Positions 3,516 through 29,833 of a stretch of DNA of 64,000 nt are shown piece by piece (position 1 is the stretch's first letter; every line of letters begins with the position of its first letter). The notes beneath the pieces are model-generated. The model saw only the letters and a program-made list of their open reading frames with translations. It did no database searches and was not told where the DNA came from. The position numbers and the translations under genes are program-made. Origin of the DNA: Thermoanaerobaculia bacterium (GTDB taxonomy: Bacteria; Acidobacteriota; Thermoanaerobaculia; UBA5066); assembly GCA_022071945.1 (NCBI GenBank), contig JAJVIN010000004.1:34827-98826 (forward strand), in the 5' to 3' direction.

Positions 3516-4910
3516 TCACGGCTTTGCCACCGGCTTCTTGACGCGCCAGTGAAACGTGTTGAGCTTCTTTTCCACGTCGAAGGTGCGGAGCATCGTCATC
3601 ACTTCGGCGCCGGCCATCAACGTGGCGCCATAACCCTGCATCGCGCCGAGGTCGGTGGGACGGTTGTAGTAGTAGACGGCGTCGTAGGCGGCCGTCGTCC
3701 CGACGCAGATCCCCTCGATCTGTCCGTCGGACCGGACCCGCCGGGCCACGGCCTGCCATCCCGTCTGGGCGACCGGGGCCCAGGCCGTCGAGAGCCAGCC
3801 CCGGTTGACGCCGCGTGCGATGGCAAACGTGAACATGGCCGAGGCGGACGTCTCGAGATAGCTGTCTGTTCTGTCGAGAAGCTGATGCCAGAGCCCCGTT
3901 CCGCCCTGTACGGCTCCAACGCCCGCCACGGCGCGCCGGTACTGCTCGAGGACTTTCGCCCGGTCGGGGTGGTTCTCGGGCATCACCGAGAGGAGATCCG
4001 CCATCGACATGAGCATCCAGCCCGCCCCGCGGCCCCAGAAAAACTTCGGATCGACCGGCAGCGCATTCTCGAACCACGAGTGGTCGTAGAGGCCGGCATC
4101 CTCGTGGAAGAGGCGCGCCGACATCCCGATGACCTGGCGGGCGGCATCGTCGAACCACTTCTGCTCTCCCGTGGCCGCCCCCATCTGCGCCAGAAACGGA
4201 ATGCTCATGTAGGCGTCGTCGATCCAGAGAGAGACCGGCTGGGGCCGGGGCCGGCACAGAGTGCCGTCCGGAAGCCGCGGCTGCCGTTTCGTGATGTGCT
4301 CGACGACGAGGTCGATTCCCTCCCGGTAGCGCGGGTCCTTCTTCCTCGCCTGCGCCCGGACGAGCGCGGCGCCGATCGCCCCGCAGTCGTCGAGTTCGTG
4401 CATGTCGATGAGGCGCCTGTATCCGTTCTTCTGTGGGCCGAACTCCTTCGCCTGCGCGCGGAAGTGCGGGAGGTGCTGGAAGATGAAGTCGAAGTTCTTT
4501 TCGGTGTAGGCGGCGAAGCGAGCATCCCCCGTCACCTCGGTGACCTGGACCATCCCGGAAAGGACGACGCCCATCGAGTAGGTCCAGTCGATGAACTCGC
4601 CCTTGCGCGTGTCGATCCCGGCGTTCTTGCGGGGCTTCGAAAAATCGGTGATCGGCGCGCCGGTCTCCACGTCGATGATCGTGTAGGGTGTCGAGCGTTC
4701 GAAGTGCTCTCGAATCCGGTCGAGCACGGCCTTGATCTCACTCTCGGAAGGAAGGGTGTAGTCGACTCCGGGGGCGAGGGACGGCTGGGAGAACGACGGA
4801 TCACTTCGTCCCGTCGACGCGACCGGGTCGGCCGCGGGCGCCTGCGCCAGGAGCAGAGAGGGGGCGGCCAGGACGAGCAAGAGGCCGGCGAGCGGGAGCG
4901 AGAGTCGCAT
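3516..4910 (-). CDS. GH105/GH88-family unsaturated rhamnogalacturonyl hydrolase, secreted
   Basis: A predicted (alpha/alpha)6-barrel enzyme removing the unsaturated galacturonyl residue left at the non-reducing end by rhamnogalacturonan or pectate lyases. The mature region shows family features: EFIDWTYSMGV, DDCGAIGAAL, the catalytic-type WIDDAYM segment (D231/D232), and HSWFENALPVDPKFFWGRGAGW. At 464 aa it is slightly long because of an N-terminal signal peptide (LPLAGLLLVLAAPSLLLAQA). The frame opens further upstream, but ATG 4910 is preceded by GGAGC and begins the signal peptide. It is divergent from the GH43 operon. A TGGTCATTCCA site (one mismatch to the locus operator) sits 22 bases upstream of the start. 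Confidence 0.9.
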   Translation of the reverse strand: MRLSLPLAGLLLVLAAPSLLLAQAPAADPVASTGRSDPSFSQPSLAPGVDYTLPSESEIKAVLDRIREHFERSTPYTIIDVETGAPITDFSKPRKNAGIDTRKGEFIDWTYSMGVVLSGMVQVTEVTGDARFAAYTEKNFDFIFQHLPHFRAQAKEFGPQKNGYRRLIDMHELDDCGAIGAALVRAQARKKDPRYREGIDLVVEHITKRQPRLPDGTLCRPRPQPVSLWIDDAYMSIPFLAQMGAATGEQKWFDDAARQVIGMSARLFHEDAGLYDHSWFENALPVDPKFFWGRGAGWMLMSMADLLSVMPENHPDRAKVLEQYRRAVAGVGAVQGGTGLWHQLLDRTDSYLETSASAMFTFAIARGVNRGWLSTAWAPVAQTGWQAVARRVRSDGQIEGICVGTTAAYDAVYYYNRPTDLGAMQGYGATLMAGAEVMTMLRTFDVEKKLNTFHWRVKKPVAKP

Positions 4911-4932
4911 CAAGGGCTCCTGATTCTTCAAG

Positions 4933-4943
4933 TGGTCATTCCA
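4933..4943 (-). promoter_or_regulatory. candidate uronate-regulator operator upstream of GH105
   Basis: TGGTCATTCCA matches the palindrome TGGTNNNACCA with one mismatch. It lies 22 bases before the GH105 ATG, similar to the position of the sites before GH43 and kduD. Assignment to the GntR regulator at 27999-28769 is inference. Confidence 0.4.
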
Positions 4944-5121
4944 CATTGATATCTTGGCGGAGATGTTGTCCGCTCTCCGGTGGTGAGATGCTGGCGCGCC
5001 GGGAGCCGAACGATGCTCGCACAATCGGGCCCGGATTGTTTTCCCGTGTGGGTTCTCCTGGTCGGATTGACCGGTCGCGCCATGCGTGAGGGATCCTAGC
5101 GTACGATCGATTCTGGCGCAA

Positions 5122-5148: not shown

Positions 5149-6819
5149 GTGCCTCCCCGGATCGGATCCGTCTCTTTCGCGACCCCGGCTCGCAGGGGTT
5201 CCGGGCTCGCGTCCGCTCTCTGGGTGAGCCTTCTCCTCGGGCTGGCCAGCACTTCCTGCGGGACGCCGCCGCCGCGGTCGAAGAGTCCCGCGGCCGCCCG
5301 GGACGGCGACACGTACCGAAATCCGATCCTCTTCGCGGATTGGTCCGACCCCGACGTCGTCCGGGTGGGGGAAGACTTCTGGCTCGTGGCGTCGAGCTTC
5401 CATGAAGTGCCCGGCCTGCCGGTTCTGCACTCGAAAGACCTCGTCCACTGGGAACTTGCGGGGCACGCGGCGTCCCGGCTTCCCTCGCCCCGCTACGACG
5501 TGCCGCGGCACGGTGGAGGCGTCTGGGCGCCCTCCATCCGCCACGACGGGGACGTCTACGAGGTCTGGTACGGCGATCCCGACCTCGGCCTCTTCGCGAC
5601 GCGGGCCCGTGATCCTCGTGGCCCGTGGGAGCCACTCCGGCAGGTTCAGGAGGCGCGGGGCTGGATCGATCCCTGCCCGTTCCGCGACACGGACGGGTCG
5701 CGCTGGGTCGTTCACGCCTGGGCGAAGAGCCGCGCGGGCTTCAATGGAGTCCTCACGGTCCGTCGTCTCTCGCCGGACGGTCTCTCCGTGGTCGGCGAGG
5801 GGGTGAACGTCTTCGACGGGGGCACCGAACACCCGACGATCGAGGGACCGAAGCTCTACCGCCGGGGCGAGTGGGTTTACATCTTCGCTCCTGCCGGAGG
5901 TGTGAAGAACGGCTGGCAAACGGTGTTGAGGTCGAAGAGTGTCCTGGGGCCCTACGAGGGGCGGATCGTTCTCGACCAGGGAGGCACGCCCACGAACGGA
6001 CCGCACCAGGGTGGCCTGGTCGACACTCCGTCCGGTGAATGGTGGTTCGTCCACTTCCAGGACCGGGGAGCGTACGGCCGCGTCACGCACCTCGAGCCGG
6101 TCTCCTGGCGCGACGGCTGGCCCGTGATTGGCGAGGATCCGGATGGCGACGGCAAGGGTCAGCCGGTAGCGGTCTTCAAGAGACCAGACGCTGGCCGCGG
6201 CTCGGCCTCGGTCGCGCCCCAGGTGTCCGACGAGTTCGACGGGACGTCCCTCGGTCCGATGTGGGCCTGGAACGCGAACCCTCGCCCGGATTGGGCCTCT
6301 CTCACGGCACGGCCGGGATTTCTCCGGCTCATCCCCGTGCGAAAGACGGAGGACGCGCCTGCCTCGATCGCTCATGAACCGAACGTGCTCCGGACACGCC
6401 TCTCCTCCGAGCGCCTCGTCGCGACGGCGCTCGTCGAGTTGAACGGCACGTCGAGGGGCGCCGAGAGTGGCCTCGCGGTCCTCGGGTTGGACGTCGCCTA
6501 CGTCGCCATCGCGAGAACCGAGAACGGATGGGAAGAGATCTTTGCCACCGGCGCCGGCGTTCTGAAGGACGGCGTGGAGCGCGTTGTCGAAAGGCGGCCG
6601 ATACCGTCCGGCAGACTCCATCTTCGCGTCACGGTCGAGCCGGGAGCCCGGCTCCGCTTCGCGACGAGCGAGGACGGCACGAACTTCACACCAATCGGAG
6701 GAGAGGTCGTCGCCCGCGAGGGAGCCTGGGTCGGAGCCCGACTCGCGCTCTTCACGCGGCCCCTTCCCGACCCGAAGCCGCAAGACGTCACGGACGTGGA
6801 GTTCTTTCGGGTGGAGTGA
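5149..6819 (+). CDS. GH43-family beta-xylosidase/alpha-L-arabinofuranosidase-like lipoprotein
   Basis: Five-bladed beta-propeller glycosidase acting on arabinan, xylan or galactan side chains. The N-terminus is hydrophobic (LWVSLLLGLAST) and ends in a Cys at about residue 37, suggesting export, perhaps as a lipoprotein (weak lipobox). GH43 signatures follow: NPILFADWSDPDVV with the likely base D67, HSKDLVHWE, APSIRHDGDVYEVWY, IEGPKLY with the likely acid E232, and GPHQGGLVDT. Residues from about 360 to 556 form a beta-sandwich (GH43 C2/DUF1349-like). GTG is the only sensible start; no Shine-Dalgarno is visible and the -10 lies about 10 bases upstream, so the mRNA may be nearly leaderless. First gene of a three-gene operon. 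Confidence 0.87.
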   Translation: MPPRIGSVSFATPARRGSGLASALWVSLLLGLASTSCGTPPPRSKSPAAARDGDTYRNPILFADWSDPDVVRVGEDFWLVASSFHEVPGLPVLHSKDLVHWELAGHAASRLPSPRYDVPRHGGGVWAPSIRHDGDVYEVWYGDPDLGLFATRARDPRGPWEPLRQVQEARGWIDPCPFRDTDGSRWVVHAWAKSRAGFNGVLTVRRLSPDGLSVVGEGVNVFDGGTEHPTIEGPKLYRRGEWVYIFAPAGGVKNGWQTVLRSKSVLGPYEGRIVLDQGGTPTNGPHQGGLVDTPSGEWWFVHFQDRGAYGRVTHLEPVSWRDGWPVIGEDPDGDGKGQPVAVFKRPDAGRGSASVAPQVSDEFDGTSLGPMWAWNANPRPDWASLTARPGFLRLIPVRKTEDAPASIAHEPNVLRTRLSSERLVATALVELNGTSRGAESGLAVLGLDVAYVAIARTENGWEEIFATGAGVLKDGVERVVERRPIPSGRLHLRVTVEPGARLRFATSEDGTNFTPIGGEVVAREGAWVGARLALFTRPLPDPKPQDVTDVEFFRVE

Positions 6820-6821: not shown

Positions 6822-9818
6822 ATGCGCGCGCGCCGCACCACGTCTCCGCTCGCCGCCGCGCTTGTCGTCGTCCTGACGATGTCGGACGCCGCGACGGCCG
6901 CCACACGCCCCGAAGGCGTGGATCTCGTCGTCGCGCGAGATGGAAGCGGCGACGTCACTACGGTCCAGGCGGCCCTCGATGCGCTCCCCCAGGTGGCGTC
7001 CCGAACCCGAGTGGTCCTGGTGAGGCGCGGCAGCTACCGGGAGAAGGTCTTCATCACCAAGAGCCGGCTGGCCCTCGTCGGCGAGGATCGCGACGCGACG
7101 CGAATCGAGTTCGACGTCCTTCGCCGCGACTGGCGAGCGTCACATCCCGATGACTGGGGCGCCGCCGTCGTCAACATCGGCGATGACGTCACCGATCTCA
7201 TCCTCGCGAACCTGACCATCAGGAACGACTACGGGTCTCGCAATGGCGGCGATCACGACCACCAGTTCGCTCTCCGCTCGGGCGGGAACTCGTCACGTAT
7301 CGCTCTCGTCCACGTGAACGCCCTCTCGGACGGCGGAGACACCGTGAGCCTCTGGAATCCGTTCGGCGGGATGACGTACTACGCCTCGTGCACATTCGAG
7401 GGTTGGGTCGACTTTCTTTGCCCTCGAGGGACCGCGTACGTGACGAGCAGTGAGTTCGTCGCCCACAGCCCGACGGCGGCGATCTGGCACGACGGCAGCA
7501 AGGACCGCGACCACAAGATGGTGATCCGGTCGTCGCGCTTCGACGGCGCTCCCGGGTTTCCGCTCGGCCGCAACAACCGCGACGGACAGTTCTATCTCCT
7601 CGATTGCGTGTTCTCCGCGAACATGGCCGACAGGCCGATCTACCAGCCTTCCGCGCCCGAAACGTACGCGTGGGAACCGCGCTCCTATTTCGACGGTTGT
7701 CACTCCGACGGCGGCGACCTGGCCTGGATCGCGAACAACCTGAGAACCGCGGATTTCGCTCCGGCGCCGTCAGAGATCACGGCCGAGTGGACCTTCTGCG
7801 GCCAGTGGGATCCCGAAGGCATGATGCCCGCCGTCCTTCCGTTCGCCGCCTTGCCGCGACCCAACGAGCGGGCCAGGAACGTCCCGCTGTTCGGTGTGCG
7901 GCTTCGCTGGGCCGCGGCCCGGGGCGCTCGCTCCCACGAGCTCTTCTTCGGCCCGGGCGACGGTCCGCCGCTCGTGTCCCGTCTCGAGGGCACGGCTTAC
8001 GACACGGGCCCGCTCGCGCCAGCGACGCGTTACTCGTGGCGAGTGGATGCGATAGGGCCGGGCGGGCGTGTTGGCGGAAAGACCTGGACGTTCGAGACGG
8101 CGGCCGCTCCCTCCCGGATCGCTCTCGCGGGCGACTCGACCGTCACCGAGCGGCAGGGCTGGGGGACGGGTTTCGCGTCGCATCTGCGGCCTGGCGCCGT
8201 CTGTTCGAATCACGCGCGGGGGGGACGCAGTTCGAAGAGCTTCGTCGACGAGGGGCACTGGAAGAAGGTGCTCGCGGAGCGGCCGGATTTCGTACTGATC
8301 CAGTTCGGGCACAACGACGCTCCCGGGAAGGGGCCCGAGCGAGAGACCGATCCCACGACGACGTACAGAGAGAACCTTGCGCGAATGGTCGACGAAGCGC
8401 GCGCGGTGGGAGTCCGTCCGGTCCTTCTGACGCCTCTGACGAGGCGTTACGTCGACGAGGTGGGGTGCATCCGGTCCGATCTGGGCGCCTATGCCGAGGG
8501 AGTCCTGGCGGTGGCGGCAGAACGTCGCGTCCCGGTCATCGACCTGCACCGGCTCTCCATCGAGGTGCTCGAGAGGATGACGCCCTCGGAGGTGGCTGCG
8601 CTCGGTGTCCCGAAGGAAGACGGTACTCTCGACCGAACCCATCTCTCCCCGCTCGGGAGTGTCCTCTTCGGTGGTCTCGTGGCGGAGGAACTCGCACGCG
8701 TCGTCCCGGAGCTGCGATCGGCGGTCAGACCGGCCGGTCCGGTGGAAGCCCCGTCGGCCGGAGTGGCGTCTGACGACGGCGCGGCCGAGTCGGAGGACCA
8801 TGGGGTCCGAAGGCTGGCGGAGCGACTCGACCGCCCAGTGGCCTTCTTCTCGACGAGCGAAGCGGCCCGCATCGGAGAGAACCTCCTCCTCTGGCAGAGG
8901 TCGAACGGCGGTTGGCCGAAGAACATCGACATGGTTCGGCCGCTCGGCCTTGCCGGCCGCGAGAAGGTCTTGCGAGGCCGGCGTCGAGAAGACACCACGA
9001 TCGACAATGGAGCCACATACACGCAGATCCGCTTCCTTGCGCGCCTCCACGAAGTTGCGAGAGACGGCCGCTTCAAGGCTGGGGCGCTCGCGGGTATCGA
9101 CTTCCTCCTGAGGGCTCAGTACCCGAACGGAGGCTGGCCACAGTTCTTCCCGCTGAGAGAGGACTATTCCCGGTTCATCACCTTCAATGACGGGGCGATG
9201 GCCGGGGTCCTGGCTCTCCTGCGCGATGTCGCGGCCGGACGGGGCTTCGACTTCGTGGATTCCGCTCGCCGGACTCGGGCGGCCCTGGCCGTCGAGAAGG
9301 GCACCGCGGCGATCCTCGCGACCCAGATCGTCGTCAACGGCAGGAAGACCGCGTGGGGAGCACAGCACGATGCGGTCTCCCTCGAGCCTCGTCCGGCGCG
9401 AGCCTTCGAGCCGGCCGCCCTCGCATCCTCGGAGAGCGTCTCGGTCCTCCGGTTTCTGATGAGTCTCCCTTCGCCCTCGAAGGGTGTCCGAGACGCCATC
9501 GAAGCCGGGGTCGACTGGCTTCGCTCCGTCAAGATCCCGGGCCTGAGAATCGCGCGCGCGGACTCTCCGTCGCTTCCGAAAGGCTGGGACGTCGTCGTGA
9601 CGCCCGACCCGGCGGCCCCACCAACCTGGGCGCGTTTCTACGAGATCGGAACCAACCGGCCGCTTTTCGCGGGACGCGACGGAGTTGTCCGGTCGAGCCT
9701 CGCCGAGATCGAGCACGAGAGACGGACAGGCTACGCCTGGTATGTCGACTCGCCCGCCGCCCTTCTCGCAACCGAGTACCCCGCGTGGAAGGCAAAGCTC
9801 CTGAAGGAGGCCCCATGA
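6822..9818 (+). CDS. trifunctional pectinase: CE8 pectinesterase - FN3-like - CE12 acetylesterase - PL10 pectate lyase
   Basis: Secreted 998-aa multidomain enzyme with a signal peptide (residues 1-27). Residues about 33-345 are a CE8 pectin methylesterase helix with Q148, D173 (GGDTVSL), D197 (VDFLC) and R250 (LGR) in the expected places. Residues 352-427 resemble a fibronectin III-like linker (YSWRVDAIGPGG). Residues 431-640 are a CE12 SGNH rhamnogalacturonan acetylesterase: GDSTV with S439, GGRSSKSF, GHNDAPG, and D604-x-x-H607. Residues about 680-998 match PL10 pectate lyase (NGGWPKNIDM, YTQIRFLARLHE, YPNGGWPQFFP, NDGAMAG, FYEIGTNRPLF, RRTGYAWY). Together they would remove methyl and acetyl esters and then cleave the exposed galacturonan. 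It starts 2 bases after the GH43 stop. Domain calls are by motif; boundaries are approximate. Confidence 0.92.
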   Translation: MRARRTTSPLAAALVVVLTMSDAATAATRPEGVDLVVARDGSGDVTTVQAALDALPQVASRTRVVLVRRGSYREKVFITKSRLALVGEDRDATRIEFDVLRRDWRASHPDDWGAAVVNIGDDVTDLILANLTIRNDYGSRNGGDHDHQFALRSGGNSSRIALVHVNALSDGGDTVSLWNPFGGMTYYASCTFEGWVDFLCPRGTAYVTSSEFVAHSPTAAIWHDGSKDRDHKMVIRSSRFDGAPGFPLGRNNRDGQFYLLDCVFSANMADRPIYQPSAPETYAWEPRSYFDGCHSDGGDLAWIANNLRTADFAPAPSEITAEWTFCGQWDPEGMMPAVLPFAALPRPNERARNVPLFGVRLRWAAARGARSHELFFGPGDGPPLVSRLEGTAYDTGPLAPATRYSWRVDAIGPGGRVGGKTWTFETAAAPSRIALAGDSTVTERQGWGTGFASHLRPGAVCSNHARGGRSSKSFVDEGHWKKVLAERPDFVLIQFGHNDAPGKGPERETDPTTTYRENLARMVDEARAVGVRPVLLTPLTRRYVDEVGCIRSDLGAYAEGVLAVAAERRVPVIDLHRLSIEVLERMTPSEVAALGVPKEDGTLDRTHLSPLGSVLFGGLVAEELARVVPELRSAVRPAGPVEAPSAGVASDDGAAESEDHGVRRLAERLDRPVAFFSTSEAARIGENLLLWQRSNGGWPKNIDMVRPLGLAGREKVLRGRRREDTTIDNGATYTQIRFLARLHEVARDGRFKAGALAGIDFLLRAQYPNGGWPQFFPLREDYSRFITFNDGAMAGVLALLRDVAAGRGFDFVDSARRTRAALAVEKGTAAILATQIVVNGRKTAWGAQHDAVSLEPRPARAFEPAALASSESVSVLRFLMSLPSPSKGVRDAIEAGVDWLRSVKIPGLRIARADSPSLPKGWDVVVTPDPAAPPTWARFYEIGTNRPLFAGRDGVVRSSLAEIEHERRTGYAWYVDSPAALLATEYPAWKAKLLKEAP

Positions 9819-17005: not shown

Positions 17006-18427
17006 CTAGTTCGCCGGAGTCGCCCGCGGGGGCGCCGCCTTCTCCTTGGCAGGGGCTGGGAGGAACGTCACGTTCTCGAGGTCGATGTCGACTGTCCCTT
17101 CGATCCGGTTCCCTTTCTCGAGGTCGCGGAACGTGCTGTCCTTGACCAGCAAGCCGCGGAGCGGCGAACCGGCGAGCGCCCGGAGAAACAGCGCATGGAC
17201 GGCCCTGCCGGCCGTCATCCGCTCGACCCTGATGTTTCGCACGGTGGGGGAGAAGGAGCCGGAAGCTCCCTCCTCGTAGAGCATGTCGATGTCGATGGCG
17301 TTCCCGGCCTGCCCGATCGTCACGTCCCTGACGAAGACGTTCTCGATGACGCCTCCGCGCATGGCGTTTGTCTTGATGCGGAGGCCCCGTTCCAGGTCGG
17401 GGCTCGACATCTCGCACGACTCCACGAAGACATTCCGGGCGCCGCCGCTGATCTCGCTGCCGATCGTCACGCCGCCGTGCCCGGCCTTCATCGTGCACCG
17501 GCGGACGACGACGTCCTCGACCGGGGTGGCGAGCCGCCGGCCGTCAGCATTCCGGCCCGACTTCAGCGCGATGCAGTCGTCCCCCGTGTCGAAGAGGGAA
17601 TCCTCGATCAGGACGCCGGTCGACGATTCGGGGTCGCACCCGTCGTTGTTCGGTCCGTGAGAGACGATCTTCACCTTCCTGACCGTGACGTTCGTCGAGA
17701 GGACCGGATGGATGACCCAGAACGGGGCATTGGTGATCGTGACCCCCTCGATGAGGATGTTCTTGCACCTGTAGGGTTCGATGAAGGAGGGCCTGAGACG
17801 GTTCCCCTCGGCGAAGACGCGGTCCTGGACCGGGACGCCGTCCTCCGCCATCTTGAGCAGCCGGTTCCGGTCCCGGTGCTGACCCTCCGGACCCTTTTCC
17901 TTCCAGGGCCACCAGTGTTGAGGAGAAGCGCCCCCATCCAGCGTTCCCTCTCCGGTGATCGCGATGGAGTCCTCGCCGAGCGCGTAGATGAGGGGCGAGT
18001 AGCCCATCAGCTCGACACCCTCCCAGCGGGTCAGGACGGGTGGAAGGTACAGGGCCGGGTCGGTCAGGAACCGGATGACGGCGCCCTTGGCGACGTGGAG
18101 TTCGACGCGGCTCTTGAGGTGGATCGGCCCGGTGACGAAGGTGCCGCCGGCAACGACGACCCGGCCGCCGCCGGCCTTCGCGCAGGCCTCGATCGCCTTC
18201 CGGAAGGCCGCCGTCGCGATCGTCTTCCCGTCACCCTTCGCTCCGAACTTCGTCACGGGGAAATCACGCTCGGGGAAGACGGGAGCCGATACCCTGGCGA
18301 GGATCTGCGGCAGACGCGTCCAGGGATCGGTTTCGAGGCGATCGGTACCCTGCGCGAAGGCGACGGACGCGGAGAGGAGACACGCCACGAGGGCCGGAGA
18401 AGCGGCTCGGCCGCGACGGAGGATCAC
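17006..18427 (-). CDS. GH28 polygalacturonase, secreted
   Basis: Right-handed beta-helix enzyme that hydrolyses homogalacturonan or trims galacturonate from rhamnogalacturonan. Signal peptide ends near residue 26 (SASVAFAQ). All GH28 signatures are present: NNDGCD (D262/D265), DTGDDCIA (D283/D284), GHGGVTIGSE (His about 312) and RIKT (about 342). 473 aa is normal. GTG start overlaps the kduI stop by GTGA, placing it fourth in the receptor operon. Exo- or endo-mode cannot be decided from motifs alone. Confidence 0.94.
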   Translation of the reverse strand: MILRRGRAASPALVACLLSASVAFAQGTDRLETDPWTRLPQILARVSAPVFPERDFPVTKFGAKGDGKTIATAAFRKAIEACAKAGGGRVVVAGGTFVTGPIHLKSRVELHVAKGAVIRFLTDPALYLPPVLTRWEGVELMGYSPLIYALGEDSIAITGEGTLDGGASPQHWWPWKEKGPEGQHRDRNRLLKMAEDGVPVQDRVFAEGNRLRPSFIEPYRCKNILIEGVTITNAPFWVIHPVLSTNVTVRKVKIVSHGPNNDGCDPESSTGVLIEDSLFDTGDDCIALKSGRNADGRRLATPVEDVVVRRCTMKAGHGGVTIGSEISGGARNVFVESCEMSSPDLERGLRIKTNAMRGGVIENVFVRDVTIGQAGNAIDIDMLYEEGASGSFSPTVRNIRVERMTAGRAVHALFLRALAGSPLRGLLVKDSTFRDLEKGNRIEGTVDIDLENVTFLPAPAKEKAAPPRATPAN

Positions 18428-19251
18428 AGCTCGTCCAGCGAAACGCCCTGCATGTCCTCGAACTCCTGGTTCTCGCCGCCCATGCTCCAGACGAAGGCGT
18501 ACCGGCTCGAACCGGCCGCGAAGTGCATCGACCAGGAGGGAGAGAGGACGGCCTGCAGGTTGCGAACGACGAGGTGACGGGTTTCGCCGGGACGGCCCAT
18601 GAAGTGGAAGACGGCGGCCCCGGGCTCCATGTCGAAGTAGAGGTAGATCTCGGTTCGTCGCGTGTGCCGGTGAGGGGGCATGGTGTTCCAGACCGAACCC
18701 GCTTCGAGATCCGTGATTCCCATGACGAGCTGGCCGCTCGGCGGACCGCCCGGGTGGATGTAGCGCCGGAGGACCCGGACGCTGGCGTGCTCCTGGTCGC
18801 CAATCCGGAAGGTCTGGGCCGCCGCGACGGCGACCTTGGCGGTCGGGAAGTCCGCGTGGCAGGGGTGGCTCATCAGATAGAAGAGGGCGGGAGTCGTCTC
18901 GGTGGAACTCTCGAAGCGGATCTGGCGTGAGCCGCGGCCCACGTAGAGCCCCTCGCGATGCGTCAGGGAATGCGGAGTCCCGTCGACCGTCACGGTTCCG
19001 GACCCGCCGAGGTTGAAGACACCGAGTTCGCGCCGCGCGCAGAAGAACGGCGCCCGCAGCTCCGGTGGAGCTCCGAGACTCAGGGGCTCCGCGAGCGGGA
19101 CGGCGGAACCGGCGATCGTTCGCTCGGCTTCCCAGTGCAGCAGACGGATCTCTCCGCGAGCGAAGAGGTCATCGACGAGGAAGGCAGCGCGTAGCTCCGC
19201 GGCCGTCATCGTTTCGGCGCGGACGGGATCGACGAGGAGCCGGTTCTGCAT
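18424..19251 (-). CDS. kduI: 5-keto-4-deoxyuronate isomerase
   Basis: Cupin-fold isomerase converting 4-deoxy-L-threo-5-hexosulose uronate, the product of pectate lyases and unsaturated glycuronyl hydrolases, to 3-deoxy-D-glycero-2,5-hexodiulosonate. Zn ligands are visible in PPHRHTRRTE and in the C-terminal SMHFAAG segment; 275 aa is typical. ATG 19251 fits the family N-terminus (MQNRLLVDPVRAE); an ATG at 19263 is also in frame. It lies between the DUF4861 protein and GH28, and its partner KduD is encoded at 29059 on the other strand, probably under the same regulator. Confidence 0.96.
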   Translation of the reverse strand: MQNRLLVDPVRAETMTAAELRAAFLVDDLFARGEIRLLHWEAERTIAGSAVPLAEPLSLGAPPELRAPFFCARRELGVFNLGGSGTVTVDGTPHSLTHREGLYVGRGSRQIRFESSTETTPALFYLMSHPCHADFPTAKVAVAAAQTFRIGDQEHASVRVLRRYIHPGGPPSGQLVMGITDLEAGSVWNTMPPHRHTRRTEIYLYFDMEPGAAVFHFMGRPGETRHLVVRNLQAVLSPSWSMHFAAGSSRYAFVWSMGGENQEFEDMQGVSLDEL

Positions 19252-19259
19252 GGGAGCCC

Positions 19260-20504
19260 TCATTCTGTGATGACTTCGATTTTCAAGGGGGAGCGTACGC
19301 GTCTGGCGAAATCCGCGATCGCTCGATCCCAATCTTCCACGGTCCGGATCTCGCCTCCCTTGTCCCACGCCGATCCGGCCCAGTGGACGGCCGGCCGCGT
19401 CGCGGAGGGATTGCCGATGGCGAGGACGTTGCCGTCGGCCTCGACGATCTCGGACAGAGAAGATGGGTCCACGACGAGGGCGAGACCGAGGTTGCCGTTG
19501 TCTCCCTTGAGCGCCTCCCAGGTCCGGATGGTCCCGCTCGGCCTGTCGGTCTTCACCGAGGCCACGGCGGCCTTCTTGAGACCAGCTGCATGCGCGAGGG
19601 GAACGCCGCCGCTCTCGTAGAAGCTCTCGAAGCGGTTGAAGCGGGAGCCGGCGTCGAGGGTGACGCGCTTGACCTCGGAGACCCGGGTGCCGGCGGCGTC
19701 CCACGCCTCGTAGATCAGCTCGAAAACGAGGCGGATTGGGCCTGCCGCAAGGACGCGGGAGAGGCGGAAGTTCTTCGAGGGGAAGAGACGGCCGTCCTTC
19801 CAGATGCCGCTCCCACCGTTTCCGCGGGACTTCCCGGCGGAGTAGAGGTCGGCACCTTCGCCGTTGTCCCGGTGGTAGTCGTCGACCATGTACCAGTCGT
19901 TGATGACGAGGCGAGAGGTCTTCTTGCACCAGACGTCGACCGTGCTGCTCGTCAGGGGTTCCTGCTGCCAGGTTTCGAGGGCGGTCCCGTACATCCGGTG
20001 GGCGACGAGGTCGTTCTCCCAGGCGAAGTCGTCGAAGCGCTCCCTCACGAACCGGCCGTAGACCCGGAAGTCCTCCTTGCGGTACGGGGCGCGCTTGCCG
20101 GGCTCGAGGAGGAAGATCTTCGTTTCGCCGGGTCCGAAGCTGGACTGGAAGACGAGGGTGTCTGGCTTGCCGTCGCCGTCGGAGTCGACGGCCTGAGACA
20201 GGATGGGTTTGCCGGTCGACGCGTCCACGACGGCAAGAGTTGGCAGGCTGGTCGTTGAAAGGGCCGTCGCGGCCCCGGATGGGACCGCGACGGTTTCGTT
20301 CGGACGTGGAACGGCGAGCGGGTTCGTCACGACAACTCGGATGGGTGCACTTGCCAGAAGTGAACCGGGAGGGAGCATCAGGCCTGCCGCGACGACGAGG
20401 CAAGAGACGGCCCGCGCCTTTCCTTTTCCCACGGCCCTCAGGGCGACGGGACGAGAGAAGAGCTGGAGGTTCACGAGCCTCGCGGGTCCAAACGGGGCTG
20501 TCAT
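19260..20504 (-). CDS. DUF4861-family secreted protein of the pectin locus
   Basis: 414-aa protein with a hydrophobic export segment (CLVVAAGLMLPPGSLLA, about residues 34-50) after a basic N-terminus. The mature part has features recalled for DUF4861 proteins: VVVTNPLAVPRPNETV, DSDGDGKPDTLVFQ, GKRAPYRKEDFRVYGRFVRERFDDFAWEND split over residues about 135-160, and WEALKGDNGNLG. DUF4861 proteins recur in pectin/uronate gene clusters; their biochemical role is not settled to my knowledge. ATG overlaps the receptor stop by ATGA, and it ends 8 bases before kduI. A role in processing or binding oligogalacturonides at the surface is inference. Confidence 0.78.
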   Translation of the reverse strand: MTAPFGPARLVNLQLFSRPVALRAVGKGKARAVSCLVVAAGLMLPPGSLLASAPIRVVVTNPLAVPRPNETVAVPSGAATALSTTSLPTLAVVDASTGKPILSQAVDSDGDGKPDTLVFQSSFGPGETKIFLLEPGKRAPYRKEDFRVYGRFVRERFDDFAWENDLVAHRMYGTALETWQQEPLTSSTVDVWCKKTSRLVINDWYMVDDYHRDNGEGADLYSAGKSRGNGGSGIWKDGRLFPSKNFRLSRVLAAGPIRLVFELIYEAWDAAGTRVSEVKRVTLDAGSRFNRFESFYESGGVPLAHAAGLKKAAVASVKTDRPSGTIRTWEALKGDNGNLGLALVVDPSSLSEIVEADGNVLAIGNPSATRPAVHWAGSAWDKGGEIRTVEDWDRAIADFARRVRSPLKIEVITE

Positions 20505-23500
20505 CAGAAGCTGAACTTGGCTCCAATCTGCCAGTCGCGGGGGTTGTTCCGTTGCTCGCGGAAATAGCCGAAGGTGGCGCTGCGGGGGTTCGTGTCGGGG
20601 TTCCACCAGACGGTGTAGTTGAGGGCGTTGATCGCCTCGAACCGGAGCTGGAGCTCGATGTCGTTCACGATGCGGAACGTCTTCGAGATGCCGATGTCGA
20701 GGAGGTGGAGGTCCGGGTAGCGAGCGCTGTCGATGGTGGACGGGAACGTCCGGACGTTCGCCTCTCCGAGAGCGATGCGCGGGTCGGCGATGTTGCCCTG
20801 GGCGTCGGGCAGGTAGAAGCACGAGGTGTTCCAGGCGGGCCGGTCGAACCCGCCGATGGCGCCGTTCTGGTTCGAGAAGTCCGTCGAGATGGACTTGGGG
20901 TCGCAGTCGGGGTTGAAGTAGAGGTTGTTCCAGATCGGAACGCCGCTCGAGAAGCTGGAGTACCAGAGGATGGGCTGGCCCATCTGGTACTGATAGGCAG
21001 CGGTGACCTGCCAGCCGCCGAAGAGGGCGTCGAGGAGGCCGCTCCAGCCGCTCCCCCACTTCCGGCCCTTGCCGAATGGGAGCTTGTAGATGCCGGCGAG
21101 GGTGGCGCGGTGCGGCCGGTCGTCCGGAGAGATCCTCTTTTCGAGGTTCGTGTCGGAGGGGTTCAGGTACCCGAGTTGATCCAGCAGCTTGGACCAGGTG
21201 TAGGTGACGAGGATCGACGAACCCTCGCTGAACTGCTTCTGCAGGGAGATCTGGAGGGCGTTGTAGGAGTCGGAGCCGTTGTACTCCTCGATCGCCACGC
21301 GGCCGAACTCGGAGTGGGGCCTCAGGAGCTGGCTGCGCTGGATCGTCGAGCCGTTGTAGCTCGTGCCGGGCAGCAGGCCTCGATAGGGGTTCGTGACCGC
21401 CTGGCTGAGGTAGGCCTCGACCGCCGTGTCGCGGACGGGGCTCGTCGAGAGGTACTGTCGCGGAATGGCGTTGATGTCGCGGCGGACCGGGAGGTTGCGT
21501 CCCTCGCTGCCGACATAGGCGACGTCCAGACGCCAGTTCTTCCCGAGGTCCTGCATGACGCCGAGGGACCAGCGCAGGTAGGTCGGATTCTCGCGGTCCT
21601 GCTGGATGATGGAGGTCGTCGTCGAGACGAGGTCCCTTCCATTGAAGGTGGCGAGCCCGAGCGAGGATCCCGTCGGAGCCGTCAGTCCGTTCGGGAAGGG
21701 ATTGTTGAGATCAGCAATGAAGGTCGCGCCGTTGTTCTCGGTGGAGACGAGGAGTGTCGGCTGGGAGAAGCCGGTCTGGTTGATTGCGTCAAAGAAGTAG
21801 GGGAATGAGAAGAGGCCGGCGCCGCCGCGAAGGACGGTCTTGTCTGTCAGGACGTAGGAGAGGCCGAGCCTCGGGAGGACCTTGGCGTTCGTGTCCCACG
21901 TGGAGCCCTCGCCATACAGGAGACCGCCCCGAACGAAGAACTGGTCGACCGGGATCTCTGGGATCGGAGCCCTGGCGTAGGCGGCCTGGGCCGCGGCCTC
22001 GACCGGGTTCGAGCTGAGCCGGTCAAAGCCGTAGATGTTGCGGTCATCGGACTCGGTGAGGCCCTGGTCGACCTCGAGCCTGAGCCCGGCATTGATCGTG
22101 AGCTTCTTTCCGACGCGCCACTCGTCGTTGACGAAGAGCGCGTGACCGATCTGGCTGTAGTCCCCCGCGGTATTCCAGTCGATGAGGCTGTTGCCGCCGG
22201 ACGTCGGGATGCCCAGAAGGAACTGGGCCAGGGCCTGACCGGTCTGTATGGCGGCGCTGTTGCTGGCGCGGGTGTAGGCCCCGGTGAAGTTGTACCGGCC
22301 GGCCAGGTAGCCGTCGTCCGTCCTCCACCAGCGCTGGTAGCGGAAGTCATAGCCGGCCCGGACGGTGTGGTCCTTGAGGAGCCACGTGATCGACGGGGCC
22401 GCGGCGTAGTTGTAGAAGGGCCGGTTGAACCCGCGCGTGTAATCGGAGCGCTGCGCGCCAAGGGTGGCGAAGCCGGAGATGTCGAACCGGGGCAGGTAGT
22501 CGTACCCCCGGAACAGGGAGACCGTCTGGGCGTTGAATCCGAGGGACGCGGGGTCGAAGGTGTCGGACGGACTGCGGCGCTCGCCGAACTTCGAGTAGGA
22601 CAGGCGGAGCTCGCCGAGGAGTGACGGAGAGAAGGTCCCCGTGTAGCCGAGCGTCGATCCGAAGTTGTCGCGAGTGTCCACGCCCTGGGTGACGGCGAAA
22701 TCGCTGACGACGCCGGCCCAGTTGTACCGGTCCTCCAGTCTCTGGTTCCAGTAAGCGTTCACGAAGAGCTGGTGCCCGCTTCCGAGGCTCTGGTCGAGGC
22801 GGATCAGCGCCGCGTTGTAGTCGTAGTCGCGGTCCTGGGGGGAGTAGTAGTTGTTCGACTGGTCGGACCGGCCGGCCTGATTGGCGAGCGGGTAGTACTT
22901 CAGGAGGGCGAGGGCGATAGGGTTCAGGCGGTTCGCCGGGATCACATTGTTCGGGAACGCCGTCCGGTTCGTGGTCCCCGTCAGCGGGTCGTAGATCCTG
23001 ATGCCGAGCGAGAGGAGCTCGGAAAAGTCGCCGGTCCTCATCTTTTCTGTGGGTACCGTGTAGGTCGCGGGTTCGCCCGTGAGGTCCTTCAGCTTCTCGT
23101 AGGAGATCATGAAGAAGGTGGAGTCCTTGATGATGGGGCCCGCAACCATCGCGGAGAACCGGTCGTACTCGCGGCTGACGTTCTCCTGGCCGGCCCTGTG
23201 CTGGAACGGGGACTTCGCGGTTCTGTCGCTCGAGCGGTTGAAGTAGGAGGCGGAGCCGTGGAAGGAGTTGGTCCCGCTCCTCAGAGCGAGGTTGATGACC
23301 GCGCCGGCCGTGTGTCCGGACTGAGCGTCGAAGGCGTTCGTCTCGACCTTGAATTCCGAGATGGCCTCGGACGGGGGGGAGAACCCGACGCGGCGGTCGG
23401 AGACGATGTTGGGGGCGCCGTCGAGGGTGAAGTCGTTGCCGCCCCTCACGCCGTTGGCGATGACGCCCCCGAGGTTCGCGTTGTCACCCGGGCGCGAGAA

Positions 23501-24013
23501 GTGAAGGTCGGAGGCCTCGGAGATGCCGGGCGCGATCCGGCTCAGCATGTAGGCGGTGCCGTCGGCGAGAGGCAGCTCCTTGATCTGTTCACGGGTGACG
23601 ACTTGTCCGGTCACCGGGGACGTCTGATCGAGCAGGGGAGCGGCTCCGGTCACGATGATCTCCGACGTGACACCCATCTTCACGACGAGGTCGACGGTCA
23701 GCACGTCGCCGACCCTCACGGGTACGGCCTTGCGAGAAACCGGAGGAACCCCGGTCAGTCTCGCCGTCACGTCGTACTTGCCCGGGTTGAGGTAGGGGAC
23801 CCGGTAGAAGCCTTTCCCGTCCGTGATCGTCGACGCGGCGACGTTCGTTTCCACGTTCGTGACGGTGATGCTCACCCCGGGCAGCTCCAGGCCCGAGTCG
23901 TCGATGATTCGCCCCTTGATCGTGCCGCGGACGTCCTGTGAGAGCGCGATCGAGGAGATCCCCAAGAGGAAGAGACAGAGGATCGGGGTGAAGGAACTGA
24001 TCCGCGGTTTCAT
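20504..24013 (-). CDS. TonB-dependent receptor, Oar-like, with N-terminal carboxypeptidase-regulatory domain
   Basis: 1169-aa outer-membrane receptor. Signal peptide (1-25), a CarboxypepD_reg beta-sandwich (about 28-110; GTIKGRIIDDSGLELPGV), a plug (about 120-235; VVTREQIKELPLADG, DFTLDGAPN), then a long beta-barrel ending in the typical terminal Phe (GAKFSF). This architecture is abundant in Acidobacteriota as a SusC-like importer. No SusD homologue is next to it. It opens the receptor-DUF4861-kduI-GH28 operon; Shine-Dalgarno GGAGG lies before ATG 24013. It probably imports oligogalacturonides; substrate is inferred from context. Confidence 0.92.
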   Translation of the reverse strand: MKPRISSFTPILCLFLLGISSIALSQDVRGTIKGRIIDDSGLELPGVSITVTNVETNVAASTITDGKGFYRVPYLNPGKYDVTARLTGVPPVSRKAVPVRVGDVLTVDLVVKMGVTSEIIVTGAAPLLDQTSPVTGQVVTREQIKELPLADGTAYMLSRIAPGISEASDLHFSRPGDNANLGGVIANGVRGGNDFTLDGAPNIVSDRRVGFSPPSEAISEFKVETNAFDAQSGHTAGAVINLALRSGTNSFHGSASYFNRSSDRTAKSPFQHRAGQENVSREYDRFSAMVAGPIIKDSTFFMISYEKLKDLTGEPATYTVPTEKMRTGDFSELLSLGIRIYDPLTGTTNRTAFPNNVIPANRLNPIALALLKYYPLANQAGRSDQSNNYYSPQDRDYDYNAALIRLDQSLGSGHQLFVNAYWNQRLEDRYNWAGVVSDFAVTQGVDTRDNFGSTLGYTGTFSPSLLGELRLSYSKFGERRSPSDTFDPASLGFNAQTVSLFRGYDYLPRFDISGFATLGAQRSDYTRGFNRPFYNYAAAPSITWLLKDHTVRAGYDFRYQRWWRTDDGYLAGRYNFTGAYTRASNSAAIQTGQALAQFLLGIPTSGGNSLIDWNTAGDYSQIGHALFVNDEWRVGKKLTINAGLRLEVDQGLTESDDRNIYGFDRLSSNPVEAAAQAAYARAPIPEIPVDQFFVRGGLLYGEGSTWDTNAKVLPRLGLSYVLTDKTVLRGGAGLFSFPYFFDAINQTGFSQPTLLVSTENNGATFIADLNNPFPNGLTAPTGSSLGLATFNGRDLVSTTTSIIQQDRENPTYLRWSLGVMQDLGKNWRLDVAYVGSEGRNLPVRRDINAIPRQYLSTSPVRDTAVEAYLSQAVTNPYRGLLPGTSYNGSTIQRSQLLRPHSEFGRVAIEEYNGSDSYNALQISLQKQFSEGSSILVTYTWSKLLDQLGYLNPSDTNLEKRISPDDRPHRATLAGIYKLPFGKGRKWGSGWSGLLDALFGGWQVTAAYQYQMGQPILWYSSFSSGVPIWNNLYFNPDCDPKSISTDFSNQNGAIGGFDRPAWNTSCFYLPDAQGNIADPRIALGEANVRTFPSTIDSARYPDLHLLDIGISKTFRIVNDIELQLRFEAINALNYTVWWNPDTNPRSATFGYFREQRNNPRDWQIGAKFSF

Positions 24014-24451: not shown

Positions 24452-25897
24452 TCAGGCCGCCCGCCTCCCGGCCGTCCGGCCAAGCCGGCCGAGCGGGATG
24501 CCGAGATAGGCCCTGGCATTGAAGAACGAGACGTCCTCCACGAGCCGGCCGAGGAGGGGAAGGTCTCGGGGCAGGAGGCCCTTCTCGACGTCGTTCCCCA
24601 GGATCTCGCAGAGGAGGCGGCGGAAGTACTCGTGCCGGGAGTACGACAGGAAGCTCCGTGAGTCCGTCACCATCCCGATGAACCGGGCCAGAAGACCCAT
24701 GTTCGAGAGGGCGCCGATCTGCTTCTCCATCCCATCCTTCTGATCCAGGAACCACCATGCCGAGCCGTACTGGAGCTTGCCAGCGACGCTCCCGTCCTGG
24801 AAGTTGCCCGTCATCGTGGCGAAGAGCTCGTTGTCGCGGGGATTGAGATTGTAGAGAACGGTCTTGGCGAGCCGGTCGTTCTCGTCGAGCCTGTCGAGAA
24901 AGCGGGCGAGCGATTCCGCCTGGGGGAAGTCTCCGATCGAATCGAATCCGGTATCGGGGCCGAGGATGCGCCGCATCCGGCTGTTGTTGTTCCGGAGGGC
25001 TCCGAGGTGGTACTGCTGCACCCAGCCCCTCCCGTGGTCCATGAGCGCCAGCTCGTGGAGAAGGGCGGAGCGGAAGAGGGACGCCTCCCCGCGCTCCGCA
25101 GCCTCTCCCCGCCGGAGCTTCGTGAAGGTAGCCGAGACGGAGGACTCATCCCACGAGTCCGCCTCGATGCGGGTCAGGCCGTGGTCCGAGGCCCGGCACC
25201 CGGCCTCGTGGAAAGCCCGGTGCCGGCGCTCGAGGGCCTCCAGGAAGGTTCCCCACGATCCGATGGCGAGACCCGAGGCGGCTTCGAGCTGCTCGACCCA
25301 CGCGTTCCAGGAGGCCGGATCGTCGATGGCACCCGCCCTGTCGGGGCGGTAGGTCGGCAGAACGATGGTGTCGGGGTCCTCACGCCTGGAGAGAGCCGCG
25401 TGATGGGAAAGCCCGTCGACGGGGTCATCGGTCGTGCACACCGTCGCGACGCGGAACTGCCGGAGGAGACCCTGAGCGGAGAACTCGGGCCTCGAGAGCT
25501 TCAGGTTCGTCCGTTCCCAGATCGCGCCCGCCGTCGAGCCGTCGAGCAGGAGATCGATGCCGAACGGGCGCTTGAGCTCCATGTGGGTCCAGTGGTAAAG
25601 GGGATTTCGCAGGGTTGACGGAACGGTCCGGGCGAAGGCCTCGAACTTCTCGCGGTCGGTCGCGTCTCCGGTGCAGTAGCGCTCCGGGACGCCATTCGTT
25701 CGCATCGCGCGCCACTTGTAATGGTCGCCCTTCAGCCAGATCTCCGTGATCGTCTCGAAGCGGTGGTCCCCGGCGATCTCCGCCACGGGAAGGTGGCAGT
25801 GATAGTCGATGATGGGCAGGTCACGCGCCCAGCCGTGGAAGAGCTCCGAGGCCACGGGCGAGGAGAGGAGAAAGTCGTCGTGGATGAAGGGCTTCAT
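24452..25897 (-). CDS. uxaC: uronate isomerase (glucuronate/galacturonate isomerase)
   Basis: Amidohydrolase-superfamily enzyme converting D-galacturonate to D-tagaturonate and D-glucuronate to D-fructuronate. Family features: IIDYHCHLP near residue 30, WLKGDHYKWRAMR, TTDDPVDGLSHH, QYHLGALRNNN, LYNLNPRDNELFATM and the C-terminal GMVTDSRSFLSYSRHEYFRR. 481 aa is typical. A strong AGGAGG precedes ATG 25897. It is the last gene of the GntR-SDR-dehydratase-uxaC unit, 45 bases after the dehydratase. It supplies the entry point for saturated galacturonate released by GH28. Confidence 0.96.
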   Translation of the reverse strand: MKPFIHDDFLLSSPVASELFHGWARDLPIIDYHCHLPVAEIAGDHRFETITEIWLKGDHYKWRAMRTNGVPERYCTGDATDREKFEAFARTVPSTLRNPLYHWTHMELKRPFGIDLLLDGSTAGAIWERTNLKLSRPEFSAQGLLRQFRVATVCTTDDPVDGLSHHAALSRREDPDTIVLPTYRPDRAGAIDDPASWNAWVEQLEAASGLAIGSWGTFLEALERRHRAFHEAGCRASDHGLTRIEADSWDESSVSATFTKLRRGEAAERGEASLFRSALLHELALMDHGRGWVQQYHLGALRNNNSRMRRILGPDTGFDSIGDFPQAESLARFLDRLDENDRLAKTVLYNLNPRDNELFATMTGNFQDGSVAGKLQYGSAWWFLDQKDGMEKQIGALSNMGLLARFIGMVTDSRSFLSYSRHEYFRRLLCEILGNDVEKGLLPRDLPLLGRLVEDVSFFNARAYLGIPLGRLGRTAGRRAA

Positions 25898-25942: not shown

Positions 25943-27229
25943 TCAGTCCTGCCAGGCGGCGCCGCCGGGGAATTCGTGGGCGTCCAGCGAGTCCGCCTTC
26001 ATGGCGGCGCTGGTTCCGGGAGCGGCCGGGGCGAGATACCGGGCGCGGATCACGCGGCACGGATCGATGAAGTGCTCGTGGAGGTGGTCGACGTACTCGC
26101 AGATCTGGCCCGAGCCCATGCCGCCGAGCGCGATGGCGTCGAAGAAGGAGAGGTGCTGCACGTACTCGCACAGGCCGACGCCGCCGCCGTGGGGGCAGAC
26201 CGGGATTCCGAACTTGGCCGCCATCAGGATGACGACGAGTGCCTCCGAGATCCCGGCCATCCGGCAGGCATCCACCTGGGCGAACGAGAGGGCGCGAGCC
26301 TCGAGGAGCTGGCGGAAGACGACGCGGTTCTGGCAGGCCTCTCCCGTCGCGACGCCGATCGGCGCCACGGCGCGCGCGATCTGCGCGTGGCCGAGGATGT
26401 CGTCTGGGCTCGTCGGCTCCTCGATCCAGTACGGATCGAAACGGGCGAGGGCCGAGACATGCCTGATCGCCTCCGCCGTTTCCCAGCACTGGTTGGCGTC
26501 GAGCATGAGACGGTTGGACGGGCCGATGGCGTCTCTGACGAGCGCGACCCGGCGCACGTTCTCCGCAAGGTCGGTTCCGACTTTGATCTTGAAGGCCGTG
26601 AAGCCCTGGGCGAGAGCCTCGCGACAAAGCCTCTCCACCTTCTCGTCCGGGTATCCGAGCCAACCCGTGGATGTGGTGTACGCCGGGAAGCCTTCCTCCA
26701 GGATGGTCTTCTCCCGTTCCCTTCTCCCCTCCGATCTCTCCGCGAGGAGCGAGATCGCCTCCTCTGGAGTCAGGACGCCCGTCACGTACGAGAAGTCGAG
26801 GGCGGAGACGAGGTCTTTGGGGGCCAAGTCGACGAGGAACTTCCAGAGGGGCTTTTCGGCCTGACGAGAAGCCAGGTCCCAGACGGCGTTGACGAGGGCG
26901 GCCGCCGCCATCTGAAGGACGCCCTTTTCAGGGCCGAGCCATCGCAGCTGCGTGTCCCGTGTGAGGTCGAAGAGGAGTGAGCGCATGCCGGCCGGGAACT
27001 CGCCGAGCTCCCGCCCCTCGACGTGGCGCGCCAGAGCCTTCACCGCCGCCACGCAGATCTCGTTGCCGCGTCCGTTCGTGAAGGTGAGGCCGTGTCCGGT
27101 GCGCCCCGAATCCGTCGTCAGCGTGACGTACGTCGCCGAGTAGTCGCCCTGGTTGAGGGCGTCGGACCCGTCTCTCTGCCTCGATGTGGGAAAGCGGATG
27201 TCGCGGACCTTGACGGTTGCGATTCTCAA
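25943..27229 (-). CDS. enolase-superfamily sugar-acid dehydratase, L-fuconate dehydratase type
   Basis: 428-aa mandelate-racemase-subgroup dehydratase, strikingly similar throughout to L-fuconate dehydratase (FucD): RFPTSRQRDGSDA, QLRWLGPEKGVLQMA, YTTSTGWLGYPDEK. K214 and K216 (FKIKVG), metal ligands in LMLDANQ, WIEEPTSPD and TGEACQN, and H347 (PHGGGVGLCEYVQH) give a full active site. TTG start overlaps the SDR stop as TTGA. FucD enzymes have been reported to accept D-altronate besides L-fuconate. Next to UxaC and an SDR, and with no UxaA in sight, I infer that it dehydrates D-altronate (or D-mannonate) to 2-keto-3-deoxygluconate. Genuine L-fuconate use is the alternative. Confidence 0.88.
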   Translation of the reverse strand: MRIATVKVRDIRFPTSRQRDGSDALNQGDYSATYVTLTTDSGRTGHGLTFTNGRGNEICVAAVKALARHVEGRELGEFPAGMRSLLFDLTRDTQLRWLGPEKGVLQMAAAALVNAVWDLASRQAEKPLWKFLVDLAPKDLVSALDFSYVTGVLTPEEAISLLAERSEGRREREKTILEEGFPAYTTSTGWLGYPDEKVERLCREALAQGFTAFKIKVGTDLAENVRRVALVRDAIGPSNRLMLDANQCWETAEAIRHVSALARFDPYWIEEPTSPDDILGHAQIARAVAPIGVATGEACQNRVVFRQLLEARALSFAQVDACRMAGISEALVVILMAAKFGIPVCPHGGGVGLCEYVQHLSFFDAIALGGMGSGQICEYVDHLHEHFIDPCRVIRARYLAPAAPGTSAAMKADSLDAHEFPGGAAWQD

Positions 27230-28002
27230 CTCAGGACTCCCGCGGCCAGGAGCCCGCCATCCACGACGAGCACATCGCCATTGATGAAGCTCGCCGCGTC
27301 GGAGGAGAGCAGGACGCAGGCCCCCTGAAGCTCCTCGACCTTTCCGTAGCGCTTGAGTGGCGTGCGCCTGACGAATTCGCGTCCGCGCTCGGTGCCGTCG
27401 AGAAGCTCTTGATTGAGAGGTGTCCGAAAGACACCGGGGGCGATCGCGTTGACGTTCACCCCGCGCGGACCCCACTCGATGGCGAGGGACCGCGTGAGCG
27501 CCGCGACGGCGGCCTTGCTCGCGTCGTAGGCGGCGACCTCGAGGAGTCCGACGAAGGAGGCGAGCGAGGCGATGTTGACGATCCGGCCGGAGCCCCGCTC
27601 CAGCATGTGCCGCCCGAAGACCTGGCAGCACCTCAGAGTGCCGGTGAGATTCGTGTCGATGATCCGGTTCCAGTCGTCCTCGAGAAGATCGAGCGCCGGC
27701 CGTCTGCGCGTCGTGGCGGCGCAGTTGACCAGAATGTCGACTCTTCCCAGGGTGGCAAGGCAGCCGGCGAGGGCAGACTCGAGCGAGTCGCGCCGGGTCA
27801 CGTCGGCGGTGATCCGCGTGGTCTTGCGGCCGAGGCCCTCCACTTCGGAAGCGGCGCTCTCGACTCCCTGACGCGTCCGCGAGATCGGAATCACGTCGGC
27901 GCCCGCCATCGCGAGGCCTCGGACGAGGCCGAGACCGATTCCGGAGGTGCCGCCCACGACGGCCGCGACCTTCCCCGAGAGGGAGAGGCCCGGCAGGCTC
28001 AC
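27226..28002 (-). CDS. SDR-family oxidoreductase, candidate hexuronate (tagaturonate/fructuronate) reductase
   Basis: 258-aa classical short-chain dehydrogenase: GGTSGIGLGL cofactor motif, NCAAT, catalytic S in ASLASF, YDASK (Y-x-x-x-K), and IAPGVFRTPLNQ. It resembles gluconate 5-dehydrogenase/KduD-type enzymes, but a separate, better KduD is encoded at 29059. GTG start overlaps the GntR stop (GTGA), and its stop overlaps the dehydratase start. Position between UxaC and a sugar-acid dehydratase suggests reduction of tagaturonate to altronate (role of UxaB), or oxidation of a keto-deoxy acid if the operon handles L-fuconate. Function is inferred from context. Confidence 0.83.
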   Translation of the reverse strand: MSLPGLSLSGKVAAVVGGTSGIGLGLVRGLAMAGADVIPISRTRQGVESAASEVEGLGRKTTRITADVTRRDSLESALAGCLATLGRVDILVNCAATTRRRPALDLLEDDWNRIIDTNLTGTLRCCQVFGRHMLERGSGRIVNIASLASFVGLLEVAAYDASKAAVAALTRSLAIEWGPRGVNVNAIAPGVFRTPLNQELLDGTERGREFVRRTPLKRYGKVEELQGACVLLSSDAASFINGDVLVVDGGLLAAGVLS

Positions 28003-29028: not shown

Positions 29029-29039
29029 AGGTCGGACCA
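29029..29039 (+). promoter_or_regulatory. candidate uronate operator upstream of kduD
   Basis: AGGTCGGACCA matches TGGTNNNACCA with one end mismatch (core GGTCGGACC is palindromic). It lies 19 bases before the kduD ATG and directly abuts the -10. Confidence 0.5.
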
Positions 29040-29040
29040 C

Positions 29041-29046: not shown

Positions 29047-29058
29047 CTTCCCGCCATC

Positions 29059-29826: not shown

Positions 29827-29833
29827 GGGAGAG

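Follow-up and report, generated by a model that had tools for sequence, protein, structure and literature searches.

Several enzymes have been described in which two pectin-active domains are joined on a single chain, and these provide the closest comparisons for the protein reported here (PMC4081043, PMC8072126, PMC4769552, PMC7953866, PMC12109409). The PL10-CE8 enzymes of Ruminococcus albus (PMC4081043) and Maribacter (PMC8072126), like those of Prevotella-type loci (L032-L081), carry a PL10 and a CE8-type domain in one chain, as does the present protein; unlike it, they place PL10 first, have no CE12 part and draw on another PL10 lineage. A CE12-CE8 esterase of Bacteroides xylanisolvens (PMC4769552) likewise unites both esterase types in one chain encoded within a pectin locus, but in the reverse order and with no lyase. 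PmeC5 of Butyrivibrio is similar in being a large secreted protein with CE8 and pectate lyase domains, although the lyase is of family PL9 rather than PL10 and no CE12 domain is named in the excerpt available; Gln230, Phe256 and Trp328, which are replaced in the present protein, are kept among the site residues listed there (PMC12109409). In PemA of Dickeya, subsite +1 comprises Gln177, Asp178, Asp199 and Met306 and subsite +2 comprises Arg267 and Gln177, while Phe202, Trp269 and Met306 form the hydrophobic place of the methyl ester (PMC10530356).

The window, a 64,000-nucleotide stretch of DNA from a Thermoanaerobaculia bacterium, contains a single intact gene at 6822-9818 encoding 998 residues with CE8-type, FN3-like, CE12-type and PL10 regions (Table 1). 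The first-pass annotation had proposed three enzyme-like domains on one polypeptide, and this was borne out by the intact gene, the profile matches and a confident structure model in which all three enzyme folds are present with structural matches. The folds are those of PemA (CE8), Aspergillus RGAE 1deo (CE12) and the PL10 lyases 1r76 and 1gxm; these are single-activity entries, whereas the window protein holds three enzyme domains in one chain. The protein is likely secreted, judging from a signal peptide read by eye. The reading we favour is a multidomain pectinase of a familiar type whose CE8 domain is an uncharacterised variant; every activity named here is a prediction. We consider it reasonably probable that the gene encodes a likely secreted protein predicted to strip esters from pectin, by means of its CE8-type and CE12-type domains, and to cut the bared chain with its PL10 domain. 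Its CE8 domain falls on a separate branch of the family, whose sampled members carry other residues where known enzymes have the methyl-ester-site Gln, Phe and Trp.

Table 1. Features of the multidomain gene and its surroundings, in window coordinates.
Feature	Position	Strand	Basis
CE8-type / FN3-like / CE12-type / PL10 gene, 998 residues	6822..9818	+	profile matches, structure model
Signal peptide (likely), Sec-type, residues 1-27	6822..6902	+	read by eye; pLDDT low at 1-22
CE8-type domain, residues 31-338	6912..7835	+	profile, fold, residue alignments
FN3-like domain, residues 341-430	7842..8111	+	model strands; 7jgt match of A2 profile
CE12-type SGNH esterase domain, residues 431-640; S439, N498, D604, H607	8112..8741	+	profile, fold, alignment
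CE12-PL10 joint, residues 641-670	8742..8831	+	pLDDT 55 (641-650), 58 (651-660)
PL10 pectate lyase domain, residues 671-998	8832..9815	+	Pfam, NCBIfam, structural matches
GH43 + GH43_C2 gene	5149..6819	+	domain matches; stop two bases before ATG of 6822-9818 gene
GH88/GH105 family gene	3516..5024	-	domain match
Penicillin-amidase-type protein, 1194 residues	11370-14954	+	domain match
GH28 polygalacturonase-type gene; genome's only PF00295 match	17006..18427	-	domain match
Frame with KduI domain (frame residues 496-688)	18424..20526	-	domain match
DUF4861 protein	19260-21059	-	domain match, within pectin/uronate locus
Outer-membrane beta-barrel protein (OMP_b-brl_4 + CarboxypepD_reg)	20504..24013	-	domain matches
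UxaC uronate isomerase	24452..25897	-	domain match
Enolase-superfamily protein, GntR-FCD regulator, SDR and KDPG aldolase genes	25943..30487	.	domain matches

The CE12 region has the fold of rhamnogalacturonan acetylesterase in the predicted structure and by structural match. S439, G468, N498, D604 and H607, to which we presumptively assign the Ser, Gly, Asn and Asp/His block names and residue roles, were kept in 87/87, 85/86, 85/86, 86/87 and 87/87 rows respectively of alignment A1 (91 rows, gaps set aside in residue counts), and these counts uphold the earlier claim for S439 and D604/H607. The 'rhamnogalacturonan' part of the acetylesterase label was overstated, since the highest-scoring CE12-type NCBIfam entry was PaeY, a pectin acetylesterase, and its 31.5 bits fall far short of the cut-off of 1000. 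For the PL10 region, Pec_lyase matched at 325 bits (cut-off 22) and TIGR02474 at 315.1 (cut-off 189.8), and the PL10 pectate lyase fold was recovered in the predicted structure and by structural match. The Asp changed to Ala in the 1gxo mutant chain corresponds to D728, which was retained in 64/64 rows, in agreement with the claim that the key residues of this domain are kept. Residues 341-430 form strands in the model and gave no Pfam match above cut-off; the A2 profile met the FN3 chain 7jgt at E 0.0034, a weak match that lends weak backing to the proposed FN3-like middle part. Elsewhere in the genome the linker matched the fn3-like parts of two very long frames of contig C26 (L127; 977-6514 and 7960-13701, 1845 and 1913 amino acids), which have NHL and fn3 matches. 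The first-pass annotation had also read from the domain layout a sequence of esters first, then cutting; domain order says nothing on the order of action, and that part was not sustained.

The CE8-type domain shows a right-handed beta-helix of pectin methylesterase (PME) type in the predicted structure and by structural match, and matched PF01095 at 56.7 bits against a curated cut-off of 27, covering profile positions 1-172 of 298 only. D173, D197 and R250 match PemA Asp178, Asp199 and Arg267. These residues were kept in 81/85 (the remaining 4/85 being non-Asp), 82/82 and 83/83 A1 rows, and each in 121/121 rows of a second search. PemA keeps Gln177, Phe202 and Trp269, whereas the window protein has G172, C200 and N252: a Gly directly before D173, a Cys third after D197 and an Asn second after R250, each no more than three residues from its anchoring catalytic residue. 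The same three positions held G (85/85), C (82/82) and N71/H10/T2 (of 83) in A1, and G118/A2/N1, C121 and H47/T47/N27 in the 121 second-search rows. The earlier statement that the CE8 key residues are kept thus stands for the two Asp and the Arg and fails for the equivalents of Gln177, Phe202 and Trp269. It had also named Q148 as the CE8 glutamine, but both MAFFT and hhalign (the latter comparison leaving out L018, L099 and L100) placed the canonical Gln, PemA Gln153, opposite H147, one residue off, and aligned Q148 with Ala; counting back from D173 without gaps would point to Q148. The equivalent of PemA Gln153 is probably H147, more so than Q148. Positions 147, 173, 197, 223 and 250 are spaced by 24-27 residues, approximately one turn of the beta-helix, and from this spacing H223 may belong to the same stack as the other four.

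The replacement of these residues recurs throughout the sampled members of one branch of the family. One branch of the CE8 tree, with an SH-aLRT of 99 (quick method, long-branch warnings), divided 66 divergent from 35 canonical domains, in a sample that favours the divergent branch because its loci were retrieved for their similarity to P0001 or A2. Prevotella-type rows were thinned to every fourth in the CE8 trees. Partial or non-CE8 loci (L050, L052, L057, L083, L084) and repeat loci (L093-L095, L097, L098) were dropped before the first tree, and L108 (Ig-like part match only) and the duplicates L104 and L110 before the residue count and the final tree. At the Gln, Phe and Trp positions the divergent rows carried G55/N9/A2, C63/V2/A1 and H34/N25/T5/F2, and the canonical rows Q32/G3, F30/L3/W2 and W30/P3/D2. 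The 33 PL10-CE8 frames of Prevotella-type loci scored 286-338 bits with the branch profile, against 56-76 for canonical CE8 domains, and without exception they carry Asn, Cys and His at the Gln, Phe and Trp positions; it is by these rows (33/33) that the Prevotella-type PL10-CE8 enzymes are seen to share the divergent CE8 part with the window protein. A Pseudoalteromonas protein, a Hymenobacter PL10 fusion and a Rufibacter protein scored 343-368. With these members the branch spans Acidobacteriota, Bacteroidota and Pseudomonadota. The Pseudoalteromonas protein, a standalone branch member, is encoded on a plasmid within a pectin catabolism cluster that also holds kduI, tagaturonate reductase and altronate dehydratase genes; its CE8 gene is immediately followed by one for a 464-residue protein without a Pfam match (L128:9070-10464). 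When PDB sequences were searched with the branch profile, 12 chains reached E 0.01 or better; no solved branch member was seen, the best match being the canonical PME 3uw0 at 57.9 bits. Nor did the open-licence PMC literature, among the matches listed, describe an activity for any member of the branch.

Retention of the catalytic residues across so diverse a branch argues for a predicted active esterase, while hydrolysis of methyl esters is not assured because the equivalents of Gln177, Phe202 and Trp269 are missing; removal of methyl groups by the domain is therefore likely, not certain. One alternative, to which we give somewhat less than an even chance, is that the domain is an ordinary pectin methylesterase whose residues have drifted, with activity and preference as in PemA. 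Asp, Asp and Arg are kept, and site residues do vary in the family: 3/35 canonical rows lack the Gln, five the Phe and five the Trp, and the PmeC5 paper, in which the triad is called strictly conserved, gives Arg in place of Gln153 (PMC12109409). Moreover, the genome has a pectin locus but no PF01095 match besides this domain. Drift of this kind sits poorly with the divergent branch, where PemA Gln177, Phe202 or Trp269 was kept in 0/66 sampled rows and where the branch has fixed residues of its own behind the SH-aLRT 99 split. If the domain is nonetheless an ordinary methylesterase, it would show that a CE8 site can work with other residues at the Gln, Phe and Trp positions.

Those branch-specific residues (W178, P201, R202 and G225 in 66/66 rows; H147, W222 and H223 in 64/66) could instead mark a new specificity for another ester or another pectic region, so that the domain would be no pectin methylesterase. 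Loss of the hydrophobic place of the methyl ester, to which Phe202 and Trp269 contribute with Met306 in PemA (PMC10530356), points the same way. The partners found with the branch, PL10, GH105 and GH28, are homogalacturonan tools, and we regard a new specificity as rather unlikely. Such tools usually need methyl groups to be removed. A broader form of the proposal, which we likewise hold to be doubtful, is that the CE8 domain here and in the Prevotella-type PL10-CE8 enzymes would constitute a separate esterase family. Its rebuilt site would have His for one Gln and Gly/Asn for the other and would lack a methyl pocket, its substrate would differ from ordinary methylated homogalacturonan, and many annotated gut and soil PMEs would be misnamed. 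Should the branch have its own specificity, many so-called pectin methylesterases, including the Prevotella-type lyase fusions, would have to be renamed, and estimates of methanol release based on CE8 counts would change.

A domain that is catalytically dead and binds galacturonan for the other two enzymes is improbable. Three site residues are lost, and two relatives on the divergent side, L099 and L100 (Acidobacteriota genomes G215 and G258), have His and Ser for PemA Asp199 and Arg267; both are probably no longer esterases, so the CE8 fold can lose catalysis. The Asp, Asp and Arg kept throughout the second search would, by contrast, not be needed by a pure binding module. For the preferred multidomain pectinase, D197 would attack the ester with D173 as acid/base and R250 holding D197, as in PemA, whose Asp residues we take to be nucleophile and acid/base. 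H147 and the invariant residues of the branch would take over part of the work of Gln177, Phe202 and Trp269, giving an altered preference, most likely still for the galacturonate methyl ester. Acetyl groups would be taken off by the CE12 domain; the PL10 lyase would cut by beta-elimination, the adjoining GH43 enzyme would trim side chains, and the uronate pathway, whose genes lie downstream, would receive the products.

The triple architecture had been called at least rare. When the query and the best 120 of 503 database matches were typed by domain, CE8L-FN3-CE12-PL10 accounted for 55/121; among these are the query itself, P0002 (its 97% twin) and rows truncated within a domain (P0054 and P0056, for example). 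A unique protein was accordingly rejected. The others were CE8L-FN3-CE12 (26), CE8L-FN3-CE12-GH105 (18), GH43-GH43_C2-CE8L-FN3-CE12-GH105 (8), FN3-CE12-PL10 (7), CE8L-FN3-PL10 (4), and one each of GH43-GH43_C2-CE8L-FN3-CE12, a piece of the GH43 kind and PL10-CE8L-CE12-GH105. With residues 1-345 as query, the best 120 of 806 matches were CE8L-FN3 (109), CE8L (8) and CE8L-FN3-CE12 (3). The architecture counts of both searches place the triple within a mix-and-match family: naturally occurring esterase fusions whose chain-cutting module, PL10 or GH105, is interchangeable. Among 148 genomes of the class, its own included, eight matched at 1e-20 and its own alone over residues 1-998. CE8, CE12 and PL10 in one frame of at least 250 amino acids occurred in none of the best 80 of 190 loci from named species genomes, from which own or near-own records may be missing. 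No CE8-CE12-PL10 protein was found described in the open-licence PMC literature, where the matches listed gave two-domain relatives only. The first-pass annotation had named numerous relatives with the same architecture as evidence that would count against it; these are present in the protein database but not in the open-licence papers searched. Rarity thus holds for that literature and not for the protein database; the triple is less rare than thought, and the divergent CE8 branch is the part that a specialist would not expect.

Grouping of the triples as one clade was rejected by the AU test on quick trees, both for CE8 (14 sampled triples, p 1.1e-139) and for PL10 (23 triples, p 1.4e-66). 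In the PL10 tree, from which four of five of L038-L085 were dropped, 34 PL10 domains of P-numbered proteins and L108 formed one clade (SH-aLRT 96), and the best fit would be a single PL10 lineage in which esterase parts were repeatedly gained or lost. A single CE8-PL10 joining was not supported, as CE8-type domains occur on three separate PL10 branches. One, of Bacteroidota, has divergent CE8, another, of other Acidobacteriota, has CE8 that is canonical by score, and the third is the group of the window protein. In this tree L050 and L108 were labelled 'canonical CE8' on low scores, and those two labels are unreliable. Canonical CE8 is also fused to CE12, and additionally to GH43 in L089. Such CE8-CE12 (-GH43) proteins of the same class (L089-L092) resemble the window protein in module pairing but have a canonical CE8 (QDT, LGRPW), and the canonical CE8 + PL10 frames of other Acidobacteriota share its pairing on a different PL10 branch; to judge by sequence, these pairings would have been joined separately from that of the window protein.

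The gene immediately upstream encodes a GH43 part that shares 62-71% identity with its counterpart in nine relatives with a GH43 fusion to CE8L-CE12, a likeness that links the gene to the same function. For the neighbouring GH105, identity with the GH105 parts of fused relatives is no higher than 28-31%. Within the genome (6.17 Mb, 96% complete) the 6822-9818 gene is the only match to PF01095 and the only match to PF09492, PF00295 has one match and PF00544 none. These counts, the pectin-related genes of Table 1, the GH43 fusions in relatives and the pectin catabolism cluster around the Pseudoalteromonas branch member all speak for the preferred reading. The place of the DUF4861 gene in the pectin/uronate locus suggests a pectin-related role for that family. 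The penicillin-amidase-type protein encoded downstream of the pectin genes has approximately 250 residues beyond its domain.
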